The position numbers were made by a program, and so were the translations under genes. Under the pieces are notes generated by a model. The model worked only from the letters and a program-made list of their open reading frames with translations, searched no databases and had not been told where the DNA came from. A stretch of 64,000 nt of DNA. Origin: Vicingus serpentipes. GTDB lineage: Bacteria > Bacteroidota > Bacteroidia > Flavobacteriales_E > Vicingaceae. Positions 12,031 to 25,026 of the stretch are shown here, piece by piece. Numbering within the stretch: the stretch's first letter is position 1; each line of letters starts with the position of its first letter. The stretch spans positions 248,001-312,000 of the forward strand of contig NZ_VOOS01000004.1 in the NCBI RefSeq assembly GCF_007993035.1, written 5' to 3'.

Positions 12031-12080
12031 TAAACATACATTATTGTTATATTTGGATGCTTAAAAATAATGTATGTTTA
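12031..12080. promoter_or_regulatory. Perfect 15-bp inverted repeat enclosing a promoter element and overlapping a start codon
   Basis: TAAACATACATTATT at 12031-12045 is the exact reverse complement of AATAATGTATGTTTA at 12066-12080. The 20-bp spacer contains TATATTTG (12048-12055), an exact TAnnTTTG -7 element. The right arm covers the ATG (12074-12076) of the first gene of the polysaccharide operon. If the -7 element is used, the mRNA would hold only the right arm, so an operator role fits best. If transcription starts further upstream, the hairpin would hide the start codon. The rest of the intergenic region (11862-12030) shows no gene or other clear site. Confidence 0.7.
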
Positions 12081-12790
12081 AACTATCAATTTTGATTCCT
12101 GCCTATAATGAGGCAAAAACCATTCATTTAATTTTGAATAAAGTTAAAGATGTACAACTTACATCTGGAATACAAAAAGAAATTATTATCGTTAATGATT
12201 TTTCTTCCGACAACTCTGTTGAAGTAATCGAAAAATACATTAATGAAAATCCAGACTTAGATATTAGATTATTTTCTCAAGAATACAATCAAGGAAAAGG
12301 CGCAGCAATTCATAAGGCAATAGAATTGGCTACTGGGGAATATTTAATTGTTCAAGATGCTGATTTGGAGTATGACCCAAGAGAATATAACGACTTGTTA
12401 AAACCAATTGTGGAGGGATTTGCTGATGTAGTTTATGGTTCTCGGTTTTTAGGAGGAAACCCTCATCGAATTTTATTCTTTTGGCACTCTATAGGAAATA
12501 AATTTTTGACATTTTTATCCAACATGTTCACTAATTTAAATTTAACAGATATGGAAACCTGTTATAAATTGATGAAAAGCGATGTGGCTAAAAGCTTAAA
12601 TTTAAAAGAAAAACGCTTTGGATTTGAACCTGAATTAACAGCAAAATTGTCTAGAGTTCCTAATTTAAGAATTTATGAGGTTGGAATTTCGTACTATGGA
12701 AGAACCTATGAAGAGGGTAAAAAAATTGGGTGGAAAGATGGTTTTAGAGCCATATATTGTATTCTTAAATATAATCTTTTTAGTAAATAA
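12074..12790 (+). CDS. GT2 glycosyltransferase, DPM1-like
   Basis: A 238-residue family 2 glycosyltransferase resembling dolichol/polyprenol-phosphate mannosyl- or glucosyltransferases. The fold start is Leu-Ile-Pro-Ala-Tyr-Asn-Glu-Ala (about residues 6-13), the metal-binding segment is Asp-Ala-Asp-Leu-Glu-Tyr-Asp-Pro (about 95-102), and Val-Tyr-Gly-Ser-Arg-Phe follows. No membrane span is obvious. It opens a six-gene operon (12074-18895). It could load a sugar onto a polyprenyl phosphate, which would then serve the GT-C-like membrane protein at 15965. That coupling is inference from known GT2/GT-C partnerships. The start codon lies inside the right arm of a perfect inverted repeat. Confidence 0.92.
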
Positions 12791-12807: not shown

Positions 12808-13239
12808 ATGAAAAAAAATGCTCTTTTAGTTGTTGTTTTTGCAATGTTGTTTGCGTGTTCTTCTTCTGAAGAAAATAATAATGTCGAGGAAAATCTTCAA
12901 GAATCTTCTGCTTTAAAAAAAGAAGAGGTAAAAAAGGATTATGATTATTTTATCAAAAGAATTTCTGAAGATGCTGACTGGATGCTTCAAGTTGAGAAGC
13001 AAGCTGTTGAATTAGGAATTTCAACAGAAGAATCTCTTAGCAAAAACGCTAAGTTTATGGCTAAGCAAAATGGCTTTGAAGAAATTGTTCCTAGTGAGCT
13101 GGAAAAGCAAATTGATAAGATTAAAAATAATCCTGAATGGTTTAGTCAAGTTGAAAAACAAGCCCTAGAAAGAGGAATAAGTTTAGATTCGATGTTAGTT
13201 AGATCTGCAAGATATGTTATAAATAATAAAAGCAACTAA
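12808..13239 (+). CDS. Small lipoprotein made of two copies of a tag module
   Basis: A 143-residue lipoprotein I cannot assign to a named family. Residues 1-17 form a lipoprotein signal with lipobox Leu-Phe-Ala-Cys17, followed by an acidic, Ser/Asn-rich linker (18-45) that could act as a surface-export signal. The remainder is two copies of a helix-turn-helix-like module at about 48-87 (Trp58) and 99-140 (Trp111). Each runs Asn/Asp-x-x-Trp, an amphipathic helix with Val-Glu-Lys-Gln-Ala, Gly-Ile-Ser, and a second helix with a conserved Ala. The same module closes four other proteins in this region, at 14673, 15965, 17549 and 20077. The gene lies 17 bp after the GT2, and its TAA shares a base with the MBOAT start. 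A scaffold or anchor role is inference. Confidence 0.85.
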   Translation: MKKNALLVVVFAMLFACSSSEENNNVEENLQESSALKKEEVKKDYDYFIKRISEDADWMLQVEKQAVELGISTEESLSKNAKFMAKQNGFEEIVPSELEKQIDKIKNNPEWFSQVEKQALERGISLDSMLVRSARYVINNKSN

Positions 13240-14669
13240 TGGTTTTTAGTAGTACTTTCTTTTTATTACTTTTTTTACCCGTTTTCCTGTTTTTTTATCA
13301 TTTAGCTGCTGTTAAATATAAAAACTGGGTAATATTAATTGCTAGTTTATTTTTTTATGCTTGGGGTGCACCTAAGTTTGTTTTTGTAGTAGTTGGTTCT
13401 GTTATTGTTGACTTTTACTTAATTGATTCAATGTATAAGTCCAAAGTTAAAAGAACAAGGCTTTGGCTGTTAACTATTTCTATTTCTATAAACCTTGGTT
13501 TACTCCTTTATTTTAAATATGCTAATTTCTTTATTGAAAATGTTAACGGGGTTTTATCTTCTTTTGGACAAGAAAATGTTTCTTGGACAAGCGTTGTTTT
13601 ACCTATAGGAATTTCGTTTTATACGTTTCAAACACTTACATATTCTATAGATGTTTTTAGGGGAACACACAAACCATTAAAAACACCTTTGCAGTACTTA
13701 GTTTATATTATGTTATTTCCTCAAATGATTGCTGGTCCAATTGTTCGTTTTAATGAAATAGCTGATCAAATTGAAAATAGAGAAGACCTTGAAACCGTTG
13801 ATAATAAGTTATTAGGGTTCTTCAGATTTGGAATAGGTCTTGCAAAAAAAGTGTTAATTGCTAACGTTATGGGACTTGAGGCTGATCGAGTTTTTTCAAT
13901 GGCAGAAGAAGATTTAACAACACCAATAGTCTGGATAGGTTCTTTAGCATATACATTTCAAATTTATTATGATTTTTCTGGTTATTCCGACATGGCAATT
14001 GGTTTGGGCAAAATATTAGGATTTAAGTTTCCGGAAAACTTTAATAACCCATATGTTTCTCAAAACATAACTGAATTCTGGAGAAGGTGGCACATTACTT
14101 TAGGAAGTTTTATGCGAGACTACCTTTATATACCTTTAGGTGGTAATAGGGTGAAATCTAAAACTAGACTTTATTCAAATTTATGGATTGTTTTCATTCT
14201 ATCTGGTCTTTGGCATGGTGCAGCATGGAACTTTGTTTTATGGGGAGCTTTTCATGGGTTTTTCTTAATATTAGATCGTTTATTTTTATTAAAAGTGTAC
14301 AGCGTTATTGGTAAGTATCCAAGTATCTTAATTACATTTATAATTACAATAGTTGGATGGGTGTTGTTTAGGGTGGAGTCCTTAAGCCAAGCGGGATTTT
14401 ATATAAAAAAGATGTTTGCTTTTGATTTTAGATCTATTGACCATTATTTAGACCAACAATTTTGGACGATATTAGTTGTTGCAATAATTTTTGCTTTTAT
14501 TACTGTTTCTAAGCTAGGTTTAAAACTAGAGCAGAAAACTTTTTTTGCTGAGAGCTATACAAATAAAGGTTATGTTTTCGGAACCTTCTTGTTTTTAATT
14601 TTATTTGTTTTAAGTTTAAGCACAATAACTTCGTCTGGCTTTAATCCATTTATTTATTTTAGATTTTGA
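13239..14669 (+). CDS. MBOAT-family O-acyltransferase (AlgI-like)
   Basis: A 476-residue multi-span membrane protein of the MBOAT/AlgI group. Relatives pass an acyl group, usually acetyl, across the inner membrane for O-acetylation of exopolysaccharides such as alginate. The conserved segment Phe-Trp-Arg-Arg-Trp-His285 and the catalytic His326 (Leu-Trp-His-Gly-Ala-Ala-Trp) are present. The Ala-Gly-Pro-Ile-Val-Arg-Phe and Tyr-Asp-Phe-Ser-Gly-Tyr-Ser-Asp motifs are also intact. About ten to twelve hydrophobic spans are visible. It ends without the C-terminal tag carried by its neighbours. The AlgJ-like gene follows after 3 bp, the usual AlgI-AlgJ arrangement, so the two should work as one acetylation system. 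Confidence 0.95.
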   Translation: MVFSSTFFLLLFLPVFLFFYHLAAVKYKNWVILIASLFFYAWGAPKFVFVVVGSVIVDFYLIDSMYKSKVKRTRLWLLTISISINLGLLLYFKYANFFIENVNGVLSSFGQENVSWTSVVLPIGISFYTFQTLTYSIDVFRGTHKPLKTPLQYLVYIMLFPQMIAGPIVRFNEIADQIENREDLETVDNKLLGFFRFGIGLAKKVLIANVMGLEADRVFSMAEEDLTTPIVWIGSLAYTFQIYYDFSGYSDMAIGLGKILGFKFPENFNNPYVSQNITEFWRRWHITLGSFMRDYLYIPLGGNRVKSKTRLYSNLWIVFILSGLWHGAAWNFVLWGAFHGFFLILDRLFLLKVYSVIGKYPSILITFIITIVGWVLFRVESLSQAGFYIKKMFAFDFRSIDHYLDQQFWTILVVAIIFAFITVSKLGLKLEQKTFFAESYTNKGYVFGTFLFLILFVLSLSTITSSGFNPFIYFRF

Positions 14670-14672
14670 TGA

Positions 14673-15953
14673 ATGAAAAAATTATTGTTAGGGTTAGTAT
14701 TTTTTCTTTTATTTATACCGTTAATTCAATGGAATATACAATTATTTGAAGAGGAACCTTTGGGTGGTGAATATACTGTTGCCGAAGAACCAGAACTAAA
14801 TTGGAATAATTGGTTGACGGGTAGTTATCAAGAACAATTCTCTAGTTTTTTTAATGATACTATAGGATTTAAAAAAACCTTGGTAAGAACATATAATCAA
14901 TATTGTTTTTCCCTTTTTAATAAAGCAAATTCTGTTAACACGATTATAGGAAAAGATAAAGTCTTGTTTCAAGAAAATGTAATTGAGTCTTATTTGGGTA
15001 AGAATTTTGCAGGAGAAGATAAGCTAAACAAAATAGTTGACGACTTTAAGTCTGCTCAAATAGATTTAGAAAAGCGAGGAATTCTTTTAGTTGCTGTTAT
15101 TGCACCAGGTAAAGCTTCGTTTTTAAAAGAATATATACCAACTAGGTTTGCCTTATCACAAAAGAAAACTAACAATTATGACTACCTAACAAAGAGGCTG
15201 ATAGAAAAGGATGCAAATATTGTTGATTTAAGTGAGTTATTAAGAAATACTAAAACCGAATATCCGTTATTTCCTAAAAACGGAATGCATTGGTCTGGCT
15301 ATAGTACGATTTTAACATTTAACTCTTTAACTCGATTTATCGAAGAAAAAACAAAAAAGAATTTAAGAGGCTACATACAAAAACCAGGTGTTTTAACAAA
15401 AGATAGTTTGAGGTACACAGATAATGATATTGCAAAAGCAATGAACACTCTTTGGTTGCCAGAAAATTTTTTAATGAATTATCCGGTTGTAGAGTTTGAG
15501 GAAGATAAATATTATAAGCCAAATGTGTTAATTATAGGAGATAGTTATTCTCAAAGCTTTTATGGTTTTTACCCTTTTTATGAAAACGTTTTCAACTCTG
15601 AGTCTAGTTTTTGGTACTATAATAGAATCGAACTTTGGCCTTACGAATCGGGTAAAGAAACAAACGTTCATAAACTAGATAAAAAAGAAGAAATATTATC
15701 TAGAAATGTTATACTATTGATGGCTACAGAAGACAATTTGCATCGTTTTGGCTTTGGTTTCCTTGAGGATTATAAATATATTTTAGAAGGGGTAGAAAGC
15801 CCTAAAGATAAAGAAGTAAAAAGGCTGGAAGAAAGCATAAGAAATAACCCAGAATGGATGAAATTTATTTATATTCAAGCGAAAGAAAGAAACCAAACAG
15901 TTGATCAAACAGTTAGAGCAAACGCTATTCATCTATTCAACAATAAGAAGTAA
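14673..15953 (+). CDS. AlgJ-like SGNH O-acetyltransferase with C-terminal tag
   Basis: A 426-residue periplasmic protein of the AlgJ/AlgX SGNH-hydrolase-like group, held by an N-terminal hydrophobic segment (about residues 4-20). The catalytic elements are intact: Gly289-Asp290-Ser291 (the nucleophile block, followed by Tyr-Ser) and Met-His206-Trp207-Ser. It should transfer acetyl groups delivered by the MBOAT protein encoded just upstream to a polysaccharide. The last 43 residues form the shared tag: Asn-Asn-Pro-Glu-Trp395, a first helix ending Ala-Lys-Glu-Arg, then a second helix with Ala-Ile-His. Here the usual Gly-Ile-Ser turn is replaced by Asn-Gln-Thr, making it the most divergent of the single copies. 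It is homologous to the protein at 17549, which lacks the nucleophile. Confidence 0.9.
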   Translation: MKKLLLGLVFFLLFIPLIQWNIQLFEEEPLGGEYTVAEEPELNWNNWLTGSYQEQFSSFFNDTIGFKKTLVRTYNQYCFSLFNKANSVNTIIGKDKVLFQENVIESYLGKNFAGEDKLNKIVDDFKSAQIDLEKRGILLVAVIAPGKASFLKEYIPTRFALSQKKTNNYDYLTKRLIEKDANIVDLSELLRNTKTEYPLFPKNGMHWSGYSTILTFNSLTRFIEEKTKKNLRGYIQKPGVLTKDSLRYTDNDIAKAMNTLWLPENFLMNYPVVEFEEDKYYKPNVLIIGDSYSQSFYGFYPFYENVFNSESSFWYYNRIELWPYESGKETNVHKLDKKEEILSRNVILLMATEDNLHRFGFGFLEDYKYILEGVESPKDKEVKRLEESIRNNPEWMKFIYIQAKERNQTVDQTVRANAIHLFNNKK

Positions 15954-15964
15954 AAATTTTATTT

Positions 15965-17545
15965 ATGAGCATATTAAAAAAATCGTTTAATTTTTTGATT
16001 GTTCTATTATTAGCCATTGTGTTTTGTTTTTATTCTCTATCGCTTGGCGAGAGTATATTAGACCCAGGAGACGGGTTAAAACATTTCTTAATTGCAAAAC
16101 ATTCATGGGATTATCCTGCTCTTTTTTTTGACCATTGGGGCAAACCCCTTTTTACGTTGTTAAGCTCACCTTTTGCTCAATTTGGGTTTAAAGGTATGCT
16201 GTTTTTTAATACACTTCTTTTTGTGGTAACCAGTTTTTTTTTATTAAAAATTGCCAAATTATTTTCTTTGAAAAATGGTTGGTTAGCTATTTTGTTTTGT
16301 TTTTCTATTCCCATTTATTTTGGTGTTGTTGTTTCTGGTTTAACAGAAATATTGTTAGCAACACTTATTGTAGCAGCTTTATATTACTTTTTAAAAGAAA
16401 ATTATTTTACAGGGTGTATAATCCTTTCTTTTTCTTATTTCTCTAGGCCAGAAAGCTTATTTGTAATAATGAGTTTTGTTCTGTATTTATTGGTAATTAA
16501 AAAGTATAAGTACATTCCAATTATTGGTTTATCAATTATAATTTATAGCATAGCAGGGTCTTTTACTCACGATGATTTCTTTTGGGTTTTTACAAAAAGA
16601 CCTTATTCCTCAACAGGAACTTACGGATCAGGGGAGTTGTTTCATTTTGTTGGAAGCTATAAAGATACCTTTGGGAAATATATATCCTTTTCTTTTTTAG
16701 TTGGGATTTCTGTAATATCTTATAATTTTATTAAAACAAAACTAACTCCCTCAAATTTACAATGGAATTTGCTTGTTGTATTCCCTGTATTTTTAGTTGT
16801 TGGTGCTCACTCAATATTGTGGTGGAAAGGGATGCAGGGTTCTGCAGGATTGTTAAGAATTTTAGCTACAATAGCTCCTTTAGTTGCTTTAGTTGCGGTT
16901 TTTGCTTTAAATAAAATAGAATCTTTATTACCAATCAAAACTCTATCTAAGCCTTTTTCTTTTCTATTATTAATAGTTGGCTCATATACAGCTTATTTAA
17001 CAGTTCAAAACCATTTTGTTGATGACAGAATGATTAGTTCGGAAAAAGTGCTGTTAGAAGCTGCGGAATGGTATAAAAACGAACATAAAGGTGTGAAGAT
17101 TTACTATATGCCTCCATATTTTGCTTATCAAGCAGGTATTGATCCTTTTGGAAAAGATACAAATATGGAAATGTTTAAAATGTTTAAGGACAAAAAAAAC
17201 CCGTCAAATAATGTTGAGTTTGGTGAATTAATTTTGTGGGATGGACAATTTTCTGAAATTGAAGGAAAAATTTCATTGACAACAATGTATAACGATCCAA
17301 GCTTAAGTCATGTTAAAACTTTTAAACCAGAAAAATCCTTCAAAGTTTACGGAATTAATTATGAGGTTCAGGTGTTTAAGAAGGTAAAAAACAAACTACA
17401 ACAGGAAGTAAACAAGATTATAGAAAGAATAAAAAACAACAAAGAATGGTTTGACAAAGTCAAAGTAGAAGCTGAAAATAGGGGTGTATCGATTGAAGAA
17501 ATGTTAAAACGATCAGCAATACATGTTATAAAAAACAGAAAGTAA
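15965..17545 (+). CDS. GT-C-like multi-span membrane protein with C-terminal tag
   Basis: A 526-residue integral membrane protein whose layout suggests a GT-C glycosyltransferase using polyprenyl-phosphate sugars. An N-terminal span is followed by a first outer loop holding Asp-Pro-Gly-Asp-Gly (about residues 33-37) and His-Trp-Gly-Lys-Pro. About nine further hydrophobic spans run to about residue 355, and a soluble outer domain follows. I do not recognise a specific subfamily. The last 42 residues are the shared tag, with Asn-Asn-Lys-Glu-Trp495, Asn-Arg-Gly-Val-Ser and Met-Leu-Lys-Arg-Ser-Ala. It starts 11 bp after the AlgJ-like gene and ends 3 bp before its paralogue. It could add sugars to, or modify, the polymer that the neighbouring enzymes acetylate; this is inference. 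Confidence 0.78.
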   Translation: MSILKKSFNFLIVLLLAIVFCFYSLSLGESILDPGDGLKHFLIAKHSWDYPALFFDHWGKPLFTLLSSPFAQFGFKGMLFFNTLLFVVTSFFLLKIAKLFSLKNGWLAILFCFSIPIYFGVVVSGLTEILLATLIVAALYYFLKENYFTGCIILSFSYFSRPESLFVIMSFVLYLLVIKKYKYIPIIGLSIIIYSIAGSFTHDDFFWVFTKRPYSSTGTYGSGELFHFVGSYKDTFGKYISFSFLVGISVISYNFIKTKLTPSNLQWNLLVVFPVFLVVGAHSILWWKGMQGSAGLLRILATIAPLVALVAVFALNKIESLLPIKTLSKPFSFLLLIVGSYTAYLTVQNHFVDDRMISSEKVLLEAAEWYKNEHKGVKIYYMPPYFAYQAGIDPFGKDTNMEMFKMFKDKKNPSNNVEFGELILWDGQFSEIEGKISLTTMYNDPSLSHVKTFKPEKSFKVYGINYEVQVFKKVKNKLQQEVNKIIERIKNNKEWFDKVKVEAENRGVSIEEMLKRSAIHVIKNRK

Positions 17546-17548
17546 TTA

Positions 17549-18895
17549 ATGAAAAAGAATAAAAAAAACACAAGGTTTTCCAAGGTATTATTTTTTTTAA
17601 TTATATGCTTTTTGTTTCTTCCATTATTTCAAAAAACAACAACTTATTTTCGAGAAATAGAGATTAAAGGTGTTTATAGTTTAGCATCAAAACCTGTAAA
17701 AACTATAGAAACATGGTTTTCTGGAGAATACCAATCAAGTTATGAAAAATATTATACCGACCACATTGGTTTTAGGGGTTTTTTTATTAAACTATACAAT
17801 CAAATTGACTTTTCTTTGTTTGATAAACTAAACGCTAACAGCTTAGTTCTTGGACTAGATGGTTATACATATGGACAGGGTTATATTGAAAATACTATTT
17901 CTGGTAAGGATTTTATCGGAGAAGCTCGTATTGACAGTATTTTAACAAAAGTAAAAGAAACTCAAATTAAGCTTAAAAACGAATTGAACATTGATTTAAT
18001 AACAGTTTATGCTCCAAGCAAAGAGTTTGTAATTCCTCAATTTATTCCGAAAAGATATTCAAATAATAAAATAGGGCAAACTAATACTGAATGTTTTATC
18101 AAAAAATCAAAAAGAATAGGATTAAACTTTGTTGATTTAAATGAATTTCTAATAAATTTTAATGATACGAGTTATTACCCAGCTTACTATAAACAAGGGG
18201 AGCATTGGTCATATTACAGCATGATTAAATCGGGAATATATTTGGTTGACTATATCGAAAAAATTAGAAAAATTGACATGCCAGATATTAATATTGTTGG
18301 CTTAGAAAATTCTGATACCGCAAGATATTTTGATAATGACCAAGGTGATGCAATGAATTTATTATTTGACTTAAAACAAGACAGAATAGTTTATCCCATT
18401 TTAAGTTTTAATGAATCGAATAAAATAAAACCAAAAGTATTAGCAATTGCCGATTGTTATTATTTACATATTTTTAGATCACCAATAGCTGATAATTGTT
18501 TTAAAAATGGAGGCGATTTTTGGTTTTATAATAGACAACTTTCCTCAAAAAAATATGGTGATGAACAAGATATTTCTGTTGTAAATAAGCATCAAGAAAT
18601 AATTAAACAAGATGTTATTATTCATATGATTACAAATCAAAATTTAAAAGATTTTGGTTTTGGCTTTTTTGATGAAATAGATAATTTATTAGAGGAATCA
18701 AAATATAAAGATTTTATTAATAAAAAAGAAGGTCTAAATAAGGAGTTTGAAGAGGAGTTGGCTAGGGTAGTTTCAAGAATAAAGAAAAACAAAGAATGGT
18801 TTGACAATGTTAAAAAAGAAGCAAAAAGTAGAAAAATTTCTATTGAAGATATGTTGGAAAGGTCTGCTAAACATGTTATAAAAAGTAGGAGCTAA
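17549..18895 (+). CDS. AlgJ-like protein lacking the SGNH nucleophile, with C-terminal tag
   Basis: A 448-residue paralogue of the AlgJ-like protein at 14673, aligned along most of its length. It shares an N-terminal membrane segment (about residues 12-28), the outer-domain segments Asp-His-Ile-Gly-Phe and Phe-Trp-Phe-Tyr-Asn-Arg, and the Phe-Gly-Phe-Gly-Phe near the end. The His219-Trp220-Ser motif is kept. At the nucleophile position the Gly-Asp-Ser block reads Ala301-Asp302-Cys303, so the catalytic Ser is replaced by Cys. It may be inactive or use a thiol. The last 42 residues are the shared tag (Trp417), very close to that of the preceding gene. It is the last gene of the plus-strand operon and meets the minus-strand group 15 bp later. 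Confidence 0.88.
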   Translation: MKKNKKNTRFSKVLFFLIICFLFLPLFQKTTTYFREIEIKGVYSLASKPVKTIETWFSGEYQSSYEKYYTDHIGFRGFFIKLYNQIDFSLFDKLNANSLVLGLDGYTYGQGYIENTISGKDFIGEARIDSILTKVKETQIKLKNELNIDLITVYAPSKEFVIPQFIPKRYSNNKIGQTNTECFIKKSKRIGLNFVDLNEFLINFNDTSYYPAYYKQGEHWSYYSMIKSGIYLVDYIEKIRKIDMPDINIVGLENSDTARYFDNDQGDAMNLLFDLKQDRIVYPILSFNESNKIKPKVLAIADCYYLHIFRSPIADNCFKNGGDFWFYNRQLSSKKYGDEQDISVVNKHQEIIKQDVIIHMITNQNLKDFGFGFFDEIDNLLEESKYKDFINKKEGLNKEFEEELARVVSRIKKNKEWFDNVKKEAKSRKISIEDMLERSAKHVIKSRS

Positions 18896-18910
18896 CAAAA
18901 CAATCTACCC

Positions 18911-20077
18911 TTAATTTTTTTTTATACTTAAGCACATTTTTTTTAACTCTAATGGAGTATTTTTTGTTACAGTTAGCGAACAGGTAAAAATGTAATCTTT
19001 GCTTAATGATGTAACCTCTTCTGAAAAGTTTAAATTGTTCCAGATATTAGGTTTGTAGTTTTTCATTGTTAATATTTTTTCGTATTTTATTTCGTTTCGC
19101 TTGTTTGTTATTTGAACTCTTATTTCAAAAGACGATTCTATTTTTTGATTAAAATTAAGGTCCAGAAAATAATCTAATGACGAATCTATATTTACTTCAA
19201 ATAAAGAACATCTATATGATATCGTTAGTCCAGAATCTCCTGGAACTGTATGGTAATCGTTTTCTAAGTCTGTTTTTTTTACTGCGTCAGTTTTATTCCA
19301 TTCTAAAATTAGGTTTGCTTTTGAAGCTTCCCCAAATTTAGCACAAGGAATATTTATGGGTTTTGTAAAATTTGTTTGAATTTGCTTTATAAATAGGCAA
19401 TTTAAATCATTGTAATTAAATGTGTTTCTGTTTGAGTTTTGGAAATAAATTTTAACAACATCTTCATCAGTAATATAGGAGGGTAATTTTATGAAAATAG
19501 GACCATTTTTTAATTTTTCAGTGGAGGTTGTTTTATAGAAAAATGAAGCACCAGTTTTGTTTTTAATATTTATTGAAATATAAAGAGGAGTGTTTTCTTG
19601 TTTAATTATGTTCGCTTTTATTACTATGAACTCTCCTCCTTTTAGACCCAAATCTTCAACTTTTTTATATAAAATATTTTCAAATAAACCGTTAACTTTT
19701 TCTTTATCCTTTTTTGGTATTGATAAAAAAACTAGAGAATCTTCTATGATAATGTTTTGCGTACTCTTATAAAGTGAAAAATTATACGCAGTATCTATAA
19801 GCATGTGATTATTAAAAAAATCAGGCTTTATTTCATAAATTTTTGACAATAAACTGTCATGTATAACTACATCATTATATATCTGATCAAGGTTTGTTTC
19901 AGTAATAGAATAATATTGAATGTAGTTATTTTTCTGGGTTAAATTAGAAAAGCAAGCAATAGTGTCGGTTGGCGTGATTCCAATTTTTTTAAAAAAACTG
20001 TCGAGATTGTTGCTTTCAGGAGAGCTTGCAAAGCATGATGTAGTTATTAATAAGCAAAATAAAAACCTCATAAGCAT
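18911..20077 (-). CDS. Secreted protein of unknown function
   Basis: A 388-residue protein I do not recognise. It has a clear Sec signal peptide (about residues 1-18, ending near Phe-Ala-Ser). The mature part is rich in Asn, Thr, Lys and aromatic residues and looks beta-strand rich. Two regions (about 150-230 and 245-388) could be beta-sandwich domains, the second resembling carbohydrate-binding modules in style, but I see no diagnostic motif. It does not carry the C-terminal tag of its neighbours. The start codon overlaps the stop of the CotH gene by one base (TAATG), so it is translated from the same mRNA. It is the last gene of the minus-strand group. Confidence 0.8.
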   Translation of the reverse strand: MLMRFLFCLLITTSCFASSPESNNLDSFFKKIGITPTDTIACFSNLTQKNNYIQYYSITETNLDQIYNDVVIHDSLLSKIYEIKPDFFNNHMLIDTAYNFSLYKSTQNIIIEDSLVFLSIPKKDKEKVNGLFENILYKKVEDLGLKGGEFIVIKANIIKQENTPLYISINIKNKTGASFFYKTTSTEKLKNGPIFIKLPSYITDEDVVKIYFQNSNRNTFNYNDLNCLFIKQIQTNFTKPINIPCAKFGEASKANLILEWNKTDAVKKTDLENDYHTVPGDSGLTISYRCSLFEVNIDSSLDYFLDLNFNQKIESSFEIRVQITNKRNEIKYEKILTMKNYKPNIWNNLNFSEEVTSLSKDYIFTCSLTVTKNTPLELKKMCLSIKKN

Positions 20078-22059
20078 TAATTCTTACTCATTTTTTTAGC
20101 TTCTAGAGTTACTAATTCACTTTCTGAAACACCTCTTTCTTTCGCTTTTTTACGAATTTCATTCATCCAGGTTGGTTTGTTAATTATTTGAACCTCGAAA
20201 TAGAGAGGAGACTTGTTTTTTTTGTCTAAAATTTCTATATCTAGAAATAATAATCTTTTGTTAATCCAACTTTTTAAATAATCAATTTCGTCTTCATATG
20301 TTTTGCCCAAATAGTGGTTGGGCCAAAAGTCTTTACTATTTAAAACGGTCCATTTTTTAAAGTTGTTTTGAGCTGGGGTTTTACAAATGTTATAAAAAGA
20401 ATCTATTTTGGCATGAATATATTCATTGCTCAATGTAGTTTTTCTTAGTTGAAAGTAGCGATTTTTTAAAGCGTCGTTAAATGTGTTGTTTGCCATTAGT
20501 TTTTCCCACCAAAAAGGCACATAGCTAGCCGAATTGTAAACAAAACTTTCAGGATTAAAGCCATCATTATAATTGGTTAGTCCGTAAGCAAAATTATAAT
20601 CCCAAATAGGACCCATATAAAATATAGGTGTTTTTGCATTTATATCAGGATTGTAGATATATGTACTAAGCCTATAAGCATCTATGTTTTTAGTAAACTC
20701 AGAAATAATAAAGTGGTCTACAAAAGAATTTATATCTACATTGGTTAGCATATCCTCGCTTTCTTGATATAAATTCTTTTCGAAAATATTAAATTGACGT
20801 TTTATTAATTCTTGTGTTGAGCTATCTGTTTTTTTTGTTTTAGGACATTCCAACGTGTAATATAAAGGAAGATGAGAAGTGTCGTTAGATGAAGGGAAAA
20901 TAGCACTCCATTTATTCCTGTCAACCTCTAATAAATAGCCTCCCGATGTAATACCGTTATTTTCTATTTTAAGTTCAGGAATATTTAAGTGATTAGGACC
21001 AATATTAATTTTTTCGGTAAGCACATAAACACCTTGGTAGTTGTCATTTATAATTAACTCAATAAAAGCAGTTTTAACTGAATAATGCCCCATATCATTA
21101 TATAAGCTATAGGTTAAAGCATTTCTAATTAAAGATTTGTCGGCATATGGTCCATATAAGACCCATTTTTTAGCTGCTGGTAAACCTAATAATGGTGTTG
21201 CTCTTGGTATACCATCATCAAGAACTGAAAACCCATAAGATTTTTTAGCAAAGTTTTGCGAACTAAACCCTCTACGTTCAATTTTTATTTGATAGGAAAT
21301 AGGCTCGTCAGTTATTTTGTTTTCGTTTTTGTTATCAAAAACATTTAATAGAGATTCAATTTTTGGCTCATCAGGAATAGCCTTATTATTTGTGTTTATT
21401 TTAAAAACAGGCAGGGTTGAACTTGAAAAAATTGATGAAGAATTTTCTCTAAAATGATTTATATTTTCTTCTTCAGGCAGTAATTTTTCTTCTAAAAAAG
21501 AGATGCTTATTTTACTAGGAGAAAAATGTTTTAAATCATTAACATTTTCCACCAATAATATTATTGTGTTTTCTCCATTTCTTAAAAAGGTAGAAACTTT
21601 TTCTAAGTTAATAAATCGTTTAGCTCTAGACCAATTTTCATAAATTTTTAACGTGTTTTTTGACCCAGTCAAAAGGTCTGTTTCAGAGGTTATTAAGTGT
21701 CTGCTTGCTTTATAGGATAGATTATTGTTTAAGTATAATGAAATAGAATATTTGTTATTATATTCTAATAGAATATGCTTTATGGACGAGATGTTTTCAA
21801 CTGATAAATTGGTTTTAAAAAGGATGTTTTTGTTGTTTTTACTTTCATCTAGCTCAATTTCTTCAATAGAACTTGGATTAACCCAGCTTATTTTAGATAA
21901 AAAGTCGGGAGTGTTTTTTAAAGCAGAATCAACTATTGCGTAAGACCATAATTTATCTTTAGAAACTGCGTAAATCCAAACATCTTTGTAAGCGAACTGA
22001 GCAGCAATAGTTAATGCTAGTGCTAAAAATATAACAATATAGACTAATTTTTTTAGCAT
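20077..22059 (-). CDS. CotH-family protein with C-terminal tag
   Basis: A 660-residue protein with a single N-terminal membrane segment or uncleaved signal (about residues 3-22). A beta-rich domain (about 30-215) precedes a CotH-type kinase-fold domain (about 250-590). Family signatures are Asn-Tyr-Gln-Gly-Val-Tyr-Val-Leu-Thr-Glu-Lys and the metal-binding Gly-Pro-Ile-Trp-Asp-Tyr-Asn-Phe-Ala-Tyr-Gly. CotH proteins are atypical kinases first known from Bacillus spore coats and widespread as secreted proteins; the substrate here is unknown. The C-terminus is the shared tag, with Lys-Pro-Thr-Trp631, Ala-Lys-Glu-Arg-Gly-Val-Ser and a closing Ala-rich helix. This makes it the only tagged protein on the minus strand. 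It abuts the larger CotH lipoprotein gene without a gap. Confidence 0.9.
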   Translation of the reverse strand: MLKKLVYIVIFLALALTIAAQFAYKDVWIYAVSKDKLWSYAIVDSALKNTPDFLSKISWVNPSSIEEIELDESKNNKNILFKTNLSVENISSIKHILLEYNNKYSISLYLNNNLSYKASRHLITSETDLLTGSKNTLKIYENWSRAKRFINLEKVSTFLRNGENTIILLVENVNDLKHFSPSKISISFLEEKLLPEEENINHFRENSSSIFSSSTLPVFKINTNNKAIPDEPKIESLLNVFDNKNENKITDEPISYQIKIERRGFSSQNFAKKSYGFSVLDDGIPRATPLLGLPAAKKWVLYGPYADKSLIRNALTYSLYNDMGHYSVKTAFIELIINDNYQGVYVLTEKINIGPNHLNIPELKIENNGITSGGYLLEVDRNKWSAIFPSSNDTSHLPLYYTLECPKTKKTDSSTQELIKRQFNIFEKNLYQESEDMLTNVDINSFVDHFIISEFTKNIDAYRLSTYIYNPDINAKTPIFYMGPIWDYNFAYGLTNYNDGFNPESFVYNSASYVPFWWEKLMANNTFNDALKNRYFQLRKTTLSNEYIHAKIDSFYNICKTPAQNNFKKWTVLNSKDFWPNHYLGKTYEDEIDYLKSWINKRLLFLDIEILDKKNKSPLYFEVQIINKPTWMNEIRKKAKERGVSESELVTLEAKKMSKN

Positions 22060-25026
22060 TTACTCAACAATAATGCTCCAGTTTTTTTGAGATTTATCGT
22101 TTATTCTATTTGATTTTATTGTTACACCTTTAGCCTCGTCAATTTCAGATATCGCGCGATAAGTGTGTTGATCTAAAACAAATCCATTTGAGTTTATAAG
22201 TGTAACCGAAGTCTCGTTGGGTGTTAGTTTAGGGAGTTCATCAATAATATTAAATGCCTTAGGATAGATGTTAGAAAACTCAATAAAATTGTTAACAAGA
22301 TAAACAGACGCTAATCGAGGTAAAATTGTGCCGATAGGAAACCTGAATTTTTTCTCTCCTTTTTCAGTTTTTATAATAATCGTATAGCCTGTTAAATTAA
22401 CATCAATATTGTAATTGTTTTGTAATTCTATCCAATCACCACTGTTTTTATCTTTAGAAGATTTAATATGAATATTAACTAAGCTAATTGCAGTTGTTTT
22501 ACTTGAAAAAGCACCAATATCATTTTTGTTTTCTTGAAGGTGATAGTCAAAATTAAGGGTGTCTAAAAAAATAGGCTTCTTATTTATTGCATCACCCCCT
22601 ATGTTTTTAGGGTAAGACAAAGAATTCGTCCTCTCTAATGTTGACCATTCATCAGCCCAAGCATACATCTCAGAGCAATTATAAAATAAATTATTTTCAG
22701 CTTTTATTGCACCGCCCAACTTATAGTCGCTTCTTTTTCTATAAGCGTATAACCCTTTTCTGTTGTTAATCATAGTGTTGTTCTTAACTAAAGCAAAAGA
22801 GCTGTCCTTAACAGAAACACATGTTTTGTTATTAATAAACAAGTTATTTTTAACTACAACTCCATTTTTAGAAGGTCCGTACTGCTCTGTGCCTATAGAA
22901 ACACCTTTGTCGGAATTATTGATTAAGATGTTATTTTCTATAATTACATTGTTACAGGCGTTTAAATCAATAGCATCATCTGGTGAATTTCTTACTAAGT
23001 TGTTTCTAATAATTCCTTTGTCTGTCTGAATGTATTCAATAGCATCAGGCATATTGTTAAAGGATGAATTTTCAGTAGTTGCGTCAACAAAATAAACAAC
23101 CATTCCTTCTCCTGTCCCATTCCCCTCAAAGGTTGAATTTAAAACATTTAATTTTCCTTTTAGTCCCCAAATCAATGCAGATCTTTTTTCACCTTCAACT
23201 AAATTTTTATTATTTATAGTTATAGAAGAGCTGTCTAATGTAACTTCTGTTTCTTTAAAGTTTATTATTCCATCTTTTAAGTGCACATGTTTAAAGTAAC
23301 CTGTTTTTGCTTTTTCATAAAAATAGATATGACTCCAATTTTTACTTGTGTTGTCAGGCATAAAATAAATGGGTTCTTCTCTCGTTCCTGACGCAAAAAT
23401 ATTCCCGTTACAACTAATTTTTACATTTTGTTTTAGGTGAATTTCAACACCAGGATTTATAGTAAGTGTTGCATTTTCTCCTATTGTTAAATTTTCTTTT
23501 ATTATATAAGGAGATCCCTCTTTAGTAAAGGTAGTGTTTGAATTAATATTAGCAGAAACCAATGTTCCGCTGTTAAAGATTAAGATGTTTTTGGTGTTAA
23601 ACCCCTCAGTAATAAAATTGCCATCGGTTGAAGATACTTTCCAATAATACTTTCCGTTTTTTAAGCTATTTAGTTTGTAAAAAGTATCGGTAATATTTGT
23701 AATGTATGTTGTTTTGCTGCTGTCAAGTAATAAAAAATCTGTTCCATAAGCTAGCGTGTAAGTAATATTCTTATTCGCCTTATGTTTAGATTTTTCCCAC
23801 TTAAAAGTAACGGTGTCAGTTTGAGTTTGTTTGAATCGATGAACATAAAAACTTAGAGGTTGCTCATTAAATTGATTTTGTAATAATGCATAATGGTTGT
23901 TAAAGTATTCTTTCTCTCGGTTAATATTTGCTAACCATTCTTTTTTCGTTTTGATTTTATCAAGAGTGTCTAATTCAACAACAGGGTCAATTAATGGAAT
24001 TAATTTATCAATAATTGGAGTTACAAATTCGTTGTTTAAATGGGACTTGTGAAGTTCGTTAATACGCTCTTTAATATCGTTGAAAATAGGCTCACATAAA
24101 ATAGCCCTTTCAATTAAAGGGTTGTCTGATTCCCATTCACTAGAAGTTCTATGATAAGTATAGGGCATCCAATTGTAGTATGATAAACTTTTGTCAATAT
24201 CCCACTGAAAAAGTTGCCATTTACCTGTTTTGTATAAATCATGATATAGGTAATAGTTATGATAATAAGTACTTCCGTTAGATAAAAACATGTTTAATGC
24301 AATAACATTTACCAAGCTTTTATATTCAAAAGTGTTTTTAACAAAAGAATAAAAATCTTTATCAGGAGTGTTATTTACTTTCTCTATCAACTCTTTTAAG
24401 TCGTTAAAACTTCCTTTTTTATTGGTTTTTTTTTCCCATTTTGCATTAACATCGTCAAAAATACTTAAGCACGCTCCGTCTTTTGTTGCTTTATAAAGAT
24501 TGTTCTTTTTAGATAAATTGTTTCTTTTAAGAAAGTGCTCATCTATATTTTCCACCTTTAAATATAAGCCGTAATATTTGTTGTTAAGATAAATTTTAAC
24601 CAGTTCGGAGTTAAAACAAATTTGCCCAGATTGCTGAATAAGTTTGCTTGAAAGGTATTGTCTTATAAGGGTTTTGTCAGAATATTCAGCATTTAAATTA
24701 AACACCATTTCGGTAGGTGAAAATGAAGTAGAATCGAATTTAATTTTTAATGATTTTTTAGGGTCTTCTCTAGATGTGTCTCCTCTAATTCTCATTTTAG
24801 CGATGTGAGTTTCGCCATTTAAAGTAATTTTTATCGGAATATAAAGGTTTTCTTTTGGCGAAGCATAAATTTTTTCAACATCACTTGTTTCGCAATCAAT
24901 ATAATATTCTTTAAAACTGGTTGGAGGAAAATCTTCATTTTCAATTTTAACTTGTGAAGTTCCACATGAAACAAAAAGAACTATGCATAAAAAAGCAACA
25001 GCGTATCTCATAGACAGAGTAATCAT
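22060..25026 (-). CDS. CotH / right-handed beta-helix / lamin-tail lipoprotein
   Basis: A 988-residue multidomain lipoprotein with lipobox Phe-Val-Ser-Cys near residue 21. An internal ATG at 25011 (Met-Arg-Tyr) would give a cleaner signal and may be the true start. The domains in order are: CotH-type kinase fold at about 30-375 (Tyr-Tyr-Gly-Leu-Tyr-Leu-Lys-Val-Glu-Asn and Trp-Asp-Ile-Asp-Lys-Ser-Leu), a fibronectin-like segment at about 390-480, a right-handed parallel beta-helix at about 490-810 with repeated Asn-Asn-x-Leu/Ile units, and a lamin-tail domain at about 840-960. It lacks the C-terminal tag. It starts 10 bp after pdxA and is followed directly by the tagged CotH gene. A cell-surface polymer-binding role is likely but unproven. 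Confidence 0.9.
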   Translation of the reverse strand: MITLSMRYAVAFLCIVLFVSCGTSQVKIENEDFPPTSFKEYYIDCETSDVEKIYASPKENLYIPIKITLNGETHIAKMRIRGDTSREDPKKSLKIKFDSTSFSPTEMVFNLNAEYSDKTLIRQYLSSKLIQQSGQICFNSELVKIYLNNKYYGLYLKVENIDEHFLKRNNLSKKNNLYKATKDGACLSIFDDVNAKWEKKTNKKGSFNDLKELIEKVNNTPDKDFYSFVKNTFEYKSLVNVIALNMFLSNGSTYYHNYYLYHDLYKTGKWQLFQWDIDKSLSYYNWMPYTYHRTSSEWESDNPLIERAILCEPIFNDIKERINELHKSHLNNEFVTPIIDKLIPLIDPVVELDTLDKIKTKKEWLANINREKEYFNNHYALLQNQFNEQPLSFYVHRFKQTQTDTVTFKWEKSKHKANKNITYTLAYGTDFLLLDSSKTTYITNITDTFYKLNSLKNGKYYWKVSSTDGNFITEGFNTKNILIFNSGTLVSANINSNTTFTKEGSPYIIKENLTIGENATLTINPGVEIHLKQNVKISCNGNIFASGTREEPIYFMPDNTSKNWSHIYFYEKAKTGYFKHVHLKDGIINFKETEVTLDSSSITINNKNLVEGEKRSALIWGLKGKLNVLNSTFEGNGTGEGMVVYFVDATTENSSFNNMPDAIEYIQTDKGIIRNNLVRNSPDDAIDLNACNNVIIENNILINNSDKGVSIGTEQYGPSKNGVVVKNNLFINNKTCVSVKDSSFALVKNNTMINNRKGLYAYRKRSDYKLGGAIKAENNLFYNCSEMYAWADEWSTLERTNSLSYPKNIGGDAINKKPIFLDTLNFDYHLQENKNDIGAFSSKTTAISLVNIHIKSSKDKNSGDWIELQNNYNIDVNLTGYTIIIKTEKGEKKFRFPIGTILPRLASVYLVNNFIEFSNIYPKAFNIIDELPKLTPNETSVTLINSNGFVLDQHTYRAISEIDEAKGVTIKSNRINDKSQKNWSIIVE

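Follow-up and report, generated by a model that had tools for sequence, protein, structure and literature searches.

Why should five envelope proteins of different families, encoded side by side, carry the same short sequence? The question is raised by a 10-kb stretch of the Vicingus serpentipes genome that lies in the window analysed here, by which we mean the whole 64,000 nucleotides from position 248,001 to 312,000 of contig NZ_VOOS01000004.1. The shared sequence is a module of about 42 residues that occurs in six copies, two in a lipoprotein and four as single C-terminal copies in other proteins (we call proteins with the module tagged). When profile hidden Markov models were built from five copies and run against all six-frame open reading frames (ORFs) of the window, the omitted copy was always recovered (independent E-value, i-E, 3e-6 to 8e-19), with the best unrelated ORF at 0.2 or worse. 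A profile search of the 2.9-Mb genome returned exactly six copies, all in the 10-kb stretch, the next candidate having an E-value of 1.2, and a broader profile gave the same six. The initial annotation, which had described a module of about 40 residues in five envelope proteins, twice in the lipoprotein, was therefore right, and its six Trp positions are correct (Table 1); copy number and homology are established by these computations. Its two motifs hold less widely than it had supposed: Asn-x-x-Trp is present in four of the six copies, with Asp in the first lipoprotein copy and Lys in the CotH protein, and Ala-x-x-Arg in five, the first lipoprotein copy being again the exception. Chance similarity or low complexity is ruled out by the leave-one-out recovery together with the tagless genomes, which stayed empty (see below). 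Shared descent of whole genes is likewise ruled out, since the hosts belong to different families and untagged relatives of the AlgJ, CotH and GH16-like hosts exist.

The module is a real, mobile and undescribed domain. Pfam and NCBIfam give the window hosts ALGX (beside MBOAT), CotH and, below the model's cut-off, GT-C-type assignments, in line with the unrelated families first proposed, and signal, lipobox or transmembrane (TM) predictions place the hosts outside the cytoplasm, also as proposed. The profile search suggested by the initial annotation had the outcome it predicted: matches fall at the C-termini of numerous envelope proteins of unrelated families, often with MBOAT, AlgJ and CotH genes as neighbours, and the view of a mobile domain is supported. 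AlgJ-like SGNH acyltransferases carry one to three C-terminal copies, almost always beside an MBOAT gene; GT-C membrane proteins (several of them PMT_2 in Pfam) carry one or two, small lipoproteins two and some CotH proteins one. Three features go beyond the initial annotation: tandem arrays of one to three copies, a single tagged protein in most carrier genomes, and an internal position, near residue 160-220, in a GH16-like lipoprotein. In a profile search with this last family, tagged members align end to end, and in about 20 genomes the match breaks at profile positions ~156-218, the module's expected place; the family comes in both forms, the module being a clean insertion inside the protein. 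Its members (L094:10922-12925, L096:5775-7733 and relatives) are large proteins that keep an EIDxE motif; Pfam finds nothing in L094 and, in L115, a match below threshold. In a survey of 157 hosts, some of whose loci were counted twice after being fetched by two routes, 120 end within 25 residues of their last module and 33, the GH16-like ones, carry it internally. A strong N-terminal hydrophobic stretch is found in 90% of these hosts, as against 47% of the ORFs around them, and TM segments and modules never overlap; the computed topology is probably extracytoplasmic in nearly all hosts.

The distribution is patchy, and the module is absent from many well-sampled families. Among 46 genomes of the window's own order (one family in the sample) 23 carry it, as do 95 of the 395 sampled from the class Bacteroidia; in an even phylum sample, which holds families other than those in the class sample, it occurs in none of the other 394 genomes. 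Altogether 88 modules in 41 regions were collected, the window included. When an AlgJ alignment was scanned over 84,980 named species, 80 loci were obtained, with AlgJ tagged in 49 and untagged in 31; almost all are labelled Bacteroidota, the exceptions being one Glaciecola and one Chlorobiota record. The former (CP034120.1, Glaciecola amylolytica), labelled Pseudomonadota, has an MBOAT-AlgJ pair nested in a clade of Fluviicola type, reflecting either a transfer or a mixed or mislabelled assembly. When 124 AlgJ cores were placed on a tree from which the module was excluded, at least seven changes of tag state fell on supported branches; parsimony gave 18, an upper figure because some untagged AlgJ rows are incomplete. 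The module has thus been gained or lost repeatedly, and its mobility is supported.

Its predicted fold is a bead of three helices. The consensus, x4-I-[KR]-x-[ND]-P-E-W-[LM]-x2-[IV]-x2-K-A-x4-I-S-x-[DE]-x2-[LI]-x2-D-A-x-[YW], keeps the Trp, two Ala and a Lys/Asp pair over 170 distinct modules on unrelated hosts. An AlphaFold2 model of the lipoprotein's two modules, based on an alignment of 34 natural tandem module pairs, has a mean predicted local distance difference test score (pLDDT) of 92 and a predicted template modelling score of 0.54, compared with a pLDDT of 72 for an earlier model without alignment. The modelled helices span positions 3-12, 14-27 and 31-45, then 55-64, 67-80 and 84-99; the tandem is predicted to form two three-helix beads without confident mutual arrangement, and the model gives no sign of neighbouring beads packing. 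By far the strongest covariation is that between Lys at Trp+7 and Asp at Trp+22 (z 7.7), with pair counts of 113 for K-D, 15 for K-E, 4 for R-E, 3 for R-D and 12 for Q-N. Since K-D and Q-N modules coexist in single chains, for example in L131, this contact most likely lies within one module. Modelling thus supports a small, autonomously folding three-helix domain. It is very improbable that such a domain is a passive spacer or stabilising cap with no binding partner: frequent loss and regain on the AlgJ tree would suit a spacer, but the conserved residues are kept on unrelated hosts, and a spacer need not be the identical domain on GT-C, GH16-like and CotH proteins.

As the initial annotation had supposed, no named domain accounts for the module. 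Pfam and NCBIfam found MBOAT, ALGX, CotH and GT2 families in the window hosts and nothing over the modules; 31 copies compared singly with Pfam gave chance-level matches only, the most frequent being RHH_1 (2 of 31 copies, best 0.0089); a tandem-module profile had no match among PDB sequences; and a search of the published literature found no description. With the module model, Foldseek returned no match under an E-value of 1 and VIA-align no Z above 5.0, its matches being mostly designed bundles and CopG-type proteins, an outcome that we take as evidence neither way. The C-terminal sorting domains of the type IX secretion system (T9SS) and dockerins resemble the module as C-terminal additions to secreted Bacteroidota proteins or to proteins acting on polysaccharides. 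The sorting domains fold as beta-sandwiches, and dockerins consist of calcium-loop helices. The module matched neither Pfam family, its model is all-helical rather than a beta-sandwich of ~70-100 residues, and in GH16-like hosts it is internal rather than at the extreme C-terminus. At the level of sequence, none of the 31 copies matched in Pfam the three-helix cell-wall-binding repeat of the Cpl-7 type at E-values up to 1. With ribbon-helix-helix proteins (CopG/Arc) it has in common the spacing A-x4-[IG]-S-x-[DE] between two helices, the RHH_1 matches just mentioned and a likeness to CopG, all below trust levels. In the single-chain prediction a helix stands in place of the N-terminal strand that in those proteins forms an intermolecular sheet. 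The module differs from them in its extracytoplasmic location without DNA-binding context, the hosts carrying signals, lipoboxes or TM segments where cytoplasmic DNA-binding proteins would be expected. SHOCT is another short helical domain of unknown function, mostly C-terminal on many unrelated bacterial proteins and missing from model organisms. However, SHOCT has two helices in ~30 residues with conserved Gly and Glu, whereas the module has three helices with an invariant Trp and two Ala, and unlike SHOCT hosts its hosts are secreted or membrane glycan enzymes; a single copy among the 31 matches a SHOCT-like model (E-value 0.038).

These comparisons bear on the idea that the module dimerises or trimerises its own host. 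Homo-oligomerisation would work with one host per genome, the helices are small and amphipathic, and the second and third of them bear a weak likeness to the paired helices in the CopG dimer (Z 4.0, 39 residues, 2.5 A). This likeness lies, however, below any trust level given by the tool, two or three tandem copies per chain fit binding modules better, and oligomerisation of the comparable SHOCT domain was tested and not supported (PMC3581485). We consider homo-oligomerisation unlikely.

Could the modules instead bring the tagged proteins together? The initial annotation had read them as docking tags that bind each other or the two-module lipoprotein, assembling synthesis, O-acylation and CotH proteins in one complex. 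Five neighbouring proteins of the window do carry the genome's only copies, and several tagged genes also lie side by side in relatives such as G396, G425, G451 and G559. However, 63 of the 95 tag-bearing class genomes have one module copy, and when 36 single-copy genomes were rechecked with a 75-sequence profile at a lax threshold, all 36 kept one tagged protein only at an E-value of 1e-3, four tagless control genomes staying empty (best 0.1). The module must therefore be of use to one protein by itself, a point against tag-tag or tag-lipoprotein docking being what it generally does. Nor does the presence of the tag on AlgJ, CotH and GH16-like relatives depend on their neighbours: AlgJ is tagged beside a tagless GH16-like protein (L248, L263), CotH is untagged in an otherwise tagged locus (L096), and GH16-like proteins are tagged with neither MBOAT nor AlgJ within 10 kb (L264-L271). 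Within a locus, modules from different proteins show no significant excess of similarity (mean identity 32.6% compared with 31.4% after shuffling, 57 of 500 shuffles being as high). A private tag set per locus was rejected, as the shuffling test was negative overall; the excess of shared non-Lys/Asp classes per locus (0.138 compared with 0.043) comes mostly from this window. An AlgJ adjoining a GH16-like gene is tagged in 22 of 22 cases, compared with 60 of 102 others, but with relatedness taken into account this association is no longer demonstrated (5 independent pairs; b differs in 0.3-0.5). An association of GH16-like presence with multi-tag AlgJ (10/15 compared with 0/34) was likewise lost after correction for relatedness. 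Docking therefore seems improbable to us, and the data do not support it as a general role, although such contacts may occur in this window. The observation made in the initial annotation was good; its guess at function is only partly supported.

A use on a single protein could also mean that the module binds one conserved untagged envelope protein, such as a secretion, sorting or anchoring factor, in all these genomes. Single-host genomes and loss in whole lineages would fit such a receptor, and the conserved Lys at Trp+7, Asp at Trp+22 and aromatic residue at Trp+25 could mark one ligand. Yet no one untagged gene lies next to all tag loci. Most AlgJ hosts have MBOAT as a neighbour, but it is missing from the surroundings of the tagged GH16-like proteins noted above, and the same MBOATs pair with untagged AlgJs. 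A common receptor thus strikes us as no better a candidate than docking, and as improbable.

A more appealing scenario is that the module binds a ligand and, as an accessory domain, keeps each host on its own target in the periplasm or at the surface. We regard this as the most likely explanation, while giving it somewhat less than even confidence. One to three tandem copies, and a lipoprotein of little else, are usual for binding modules; taken together with the glycan-enzyme hosts and the binding modules known from AlgX and Emb enzymes, they point to a binding module for a shared target. AlgX enzymes have a C-terminal carbohydrate-binding module (PMC4148444, PMC9734138), and the Emb GT-C enzymes have periplasmic ones that are beta-sandwiches (PMC7341804). 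The window module is likewise accessory to an SGNH or GT-C catalytic domain, extracytoplasmic and found on surface-polymer enzymes; in the AlgJ-like hosts it forms a separate domain C-terminal to the SGNH domain, with MBOAT next door. It differs in size and fold, the AlgX module having ~115 residues (PMC9734138) and the EmbB modules being beta-sandwiches (PMC7341804) where the window module is all-helical, with no match in Pfam (31 copies) or among PDB sequences. Unlike the AlgX and Emb modules, it is repeated one to three times and common to unrelated hosts of one genome. Several points speak against ligand binding. The Emb precedent is not helical, the module carries a mean net charge near zero, so that nothing points to an acidic glycan, no significant PDB fold match exists from which a function could be inherited, and homo-oligomerisation would also account for single-host genomes. 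That a ligand is bound is something we infer.

The module has moved repeatedly onto extracytoplasmic Bacteroidia enzymes that build, acylate or cut surface glycans, and if it does bind a ligand, the target may be either the growing glycan or some other fixed part of the envelope. At this locus (Table 1), the GT2 protein would make a lipid-linked sugar that the GT-C protein uses outside the membrane; MBOAT would load an acyl group onto its own C-terminal Tyr; the two AlgJ-like proteins would receive the acyl group and pass it to the glycan; and the CotH protein and the two-module lipoprotein may act on or hold the same material, each via its own module. Here too we infer both the identity of the ligand and the order of the pathway. 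The window MBOAT adjoins AlgJ-like 1 and ends in FNPFIYFRF, in which FIYFRF conforms to FXYXXF, an acyl-shuttle motif of the MBOAT C-terminus that has been described for PatA and DltX and shown for PatA (PMC12148441). GT2 genes related to that of the window recur near tagged genes at other loci, and the architecture of the two-module lipoprotein recurs in L094, L095 and L097. Several other MBOAT genes are present in the genome, and modules are confined to the window locus, in keeping with one specific target.

Table 1. Module copies and their genes in the window (positions count from the first nucleotide of the window).
Feature	Position	Strand	Evidence and remarks
GT2 glycosyltransferase, polyprenyl-phosphate-sugar synthase type, untagged	12074..12790	+	PF00535, 8e-33; first gene of set
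Lipoprotein, 143 aa	12808..13239	+	Signal with lipobox (LFAC); little besides two modules
Module copy 1, lipoprotein residues 44-89, Trp58	12937..13074	+	Own profile E 2.8e-23; left out i-E 1.1e-9
Module copy 2, lipoprotein end, Trp111	13096..13233	+	Own profile E 7.6e-25; left out i-E 1.8e-18; three helices in models
MBOAT O-acyltransferase, untagged	13239..14669	+	PF03062, 2e-30
AlgJ/AlgX-like SGNH acyltransferase 1 (GDSY)	14673..15953	+	PF16822, 5e-14
Module, C-terminus of AlgJ-like 1, Trp395	15813..15950	+	Profile; left out i-E 2e-8
GT-C-like polytopic membrane protein	15965..17545	+	NF046093, 1.3e-8, below the model's cut-off; 7 predicted TM segments
Module, C-terminus of GT-C-like protein, Trp495	17405..17542	+	Profile; left out i-E 8e-19
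AlgJ-like acyltransferase 2	17549..18895	+	No Pfam match; placed by alignment to AlgJ relatives
Module, C-terminus of AlgJ-like 2, Trp417	18755..18892	+	Profile; left out i-E 6e-16
CotH-domain protein	20077..22059	-	PF08757, 3.6e-55; N-terminal hydrophobic segment
Module, C-terminus of CotH protein, Trp631	20080..20205	-	Profile; left out i-E 3.3e-6

Some further observations concern the hosts and their surroundings. AlgJ-like 2 reads IADCYY where nearly all relatives read GDSY, a Ser to Cys change, and judging from this alignment its nucleophile would be Cys. In the AlgJ relatives as a group, KxGxHWS takes the place of the DxH motif and following Trp of Pseudomonas AlgJ; their triad acid may be another Asp, and an invariant Asp lies ~20 residues earlier. 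A secreted-looking protein of 388 residues with no convincing Pfam or NCBIfam match is encoded between the two operons (18911-20077, minus strand). The tagged CotH protein is paired with a second one (22060-25026, minus strand) that has right-handed beta-helix and lamin-tail domains, a pair that recurs in several relatives. Elsewhere in the same genome (G000:C3:408664-418467), four further MBOAT homologues lie within 10 kb, with AlgX-like genes nearby and modules absent.

Outside alginate, little is known about what directs periplasmic MBOAT-SGNH acyltransferases and GT-C enzymes to the polymer each acts on. A compact, portable module on such enzymes, missing from the curated libraries used (Pfam and NCBIfam), offers a handle on this problem, as it can be expressed alone and its ligand sought, and the GH16-like family provides a natural experiment with and without it. 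It is tempting, if still doubtful, to propose that the three-helix domains are a new family of glycan-binding modules with no relation to the beta-sandwich ones. Bacteroidia would have shuffled it onto the glycosyltransferase, O-acyltransferase, glycoside-hydrolase-like and CotH proteins that serve one pathway, and it would mark the enzymes of one surface glycan. The presence of the module could then be used to predict which enzymes of a genome share a glycan.

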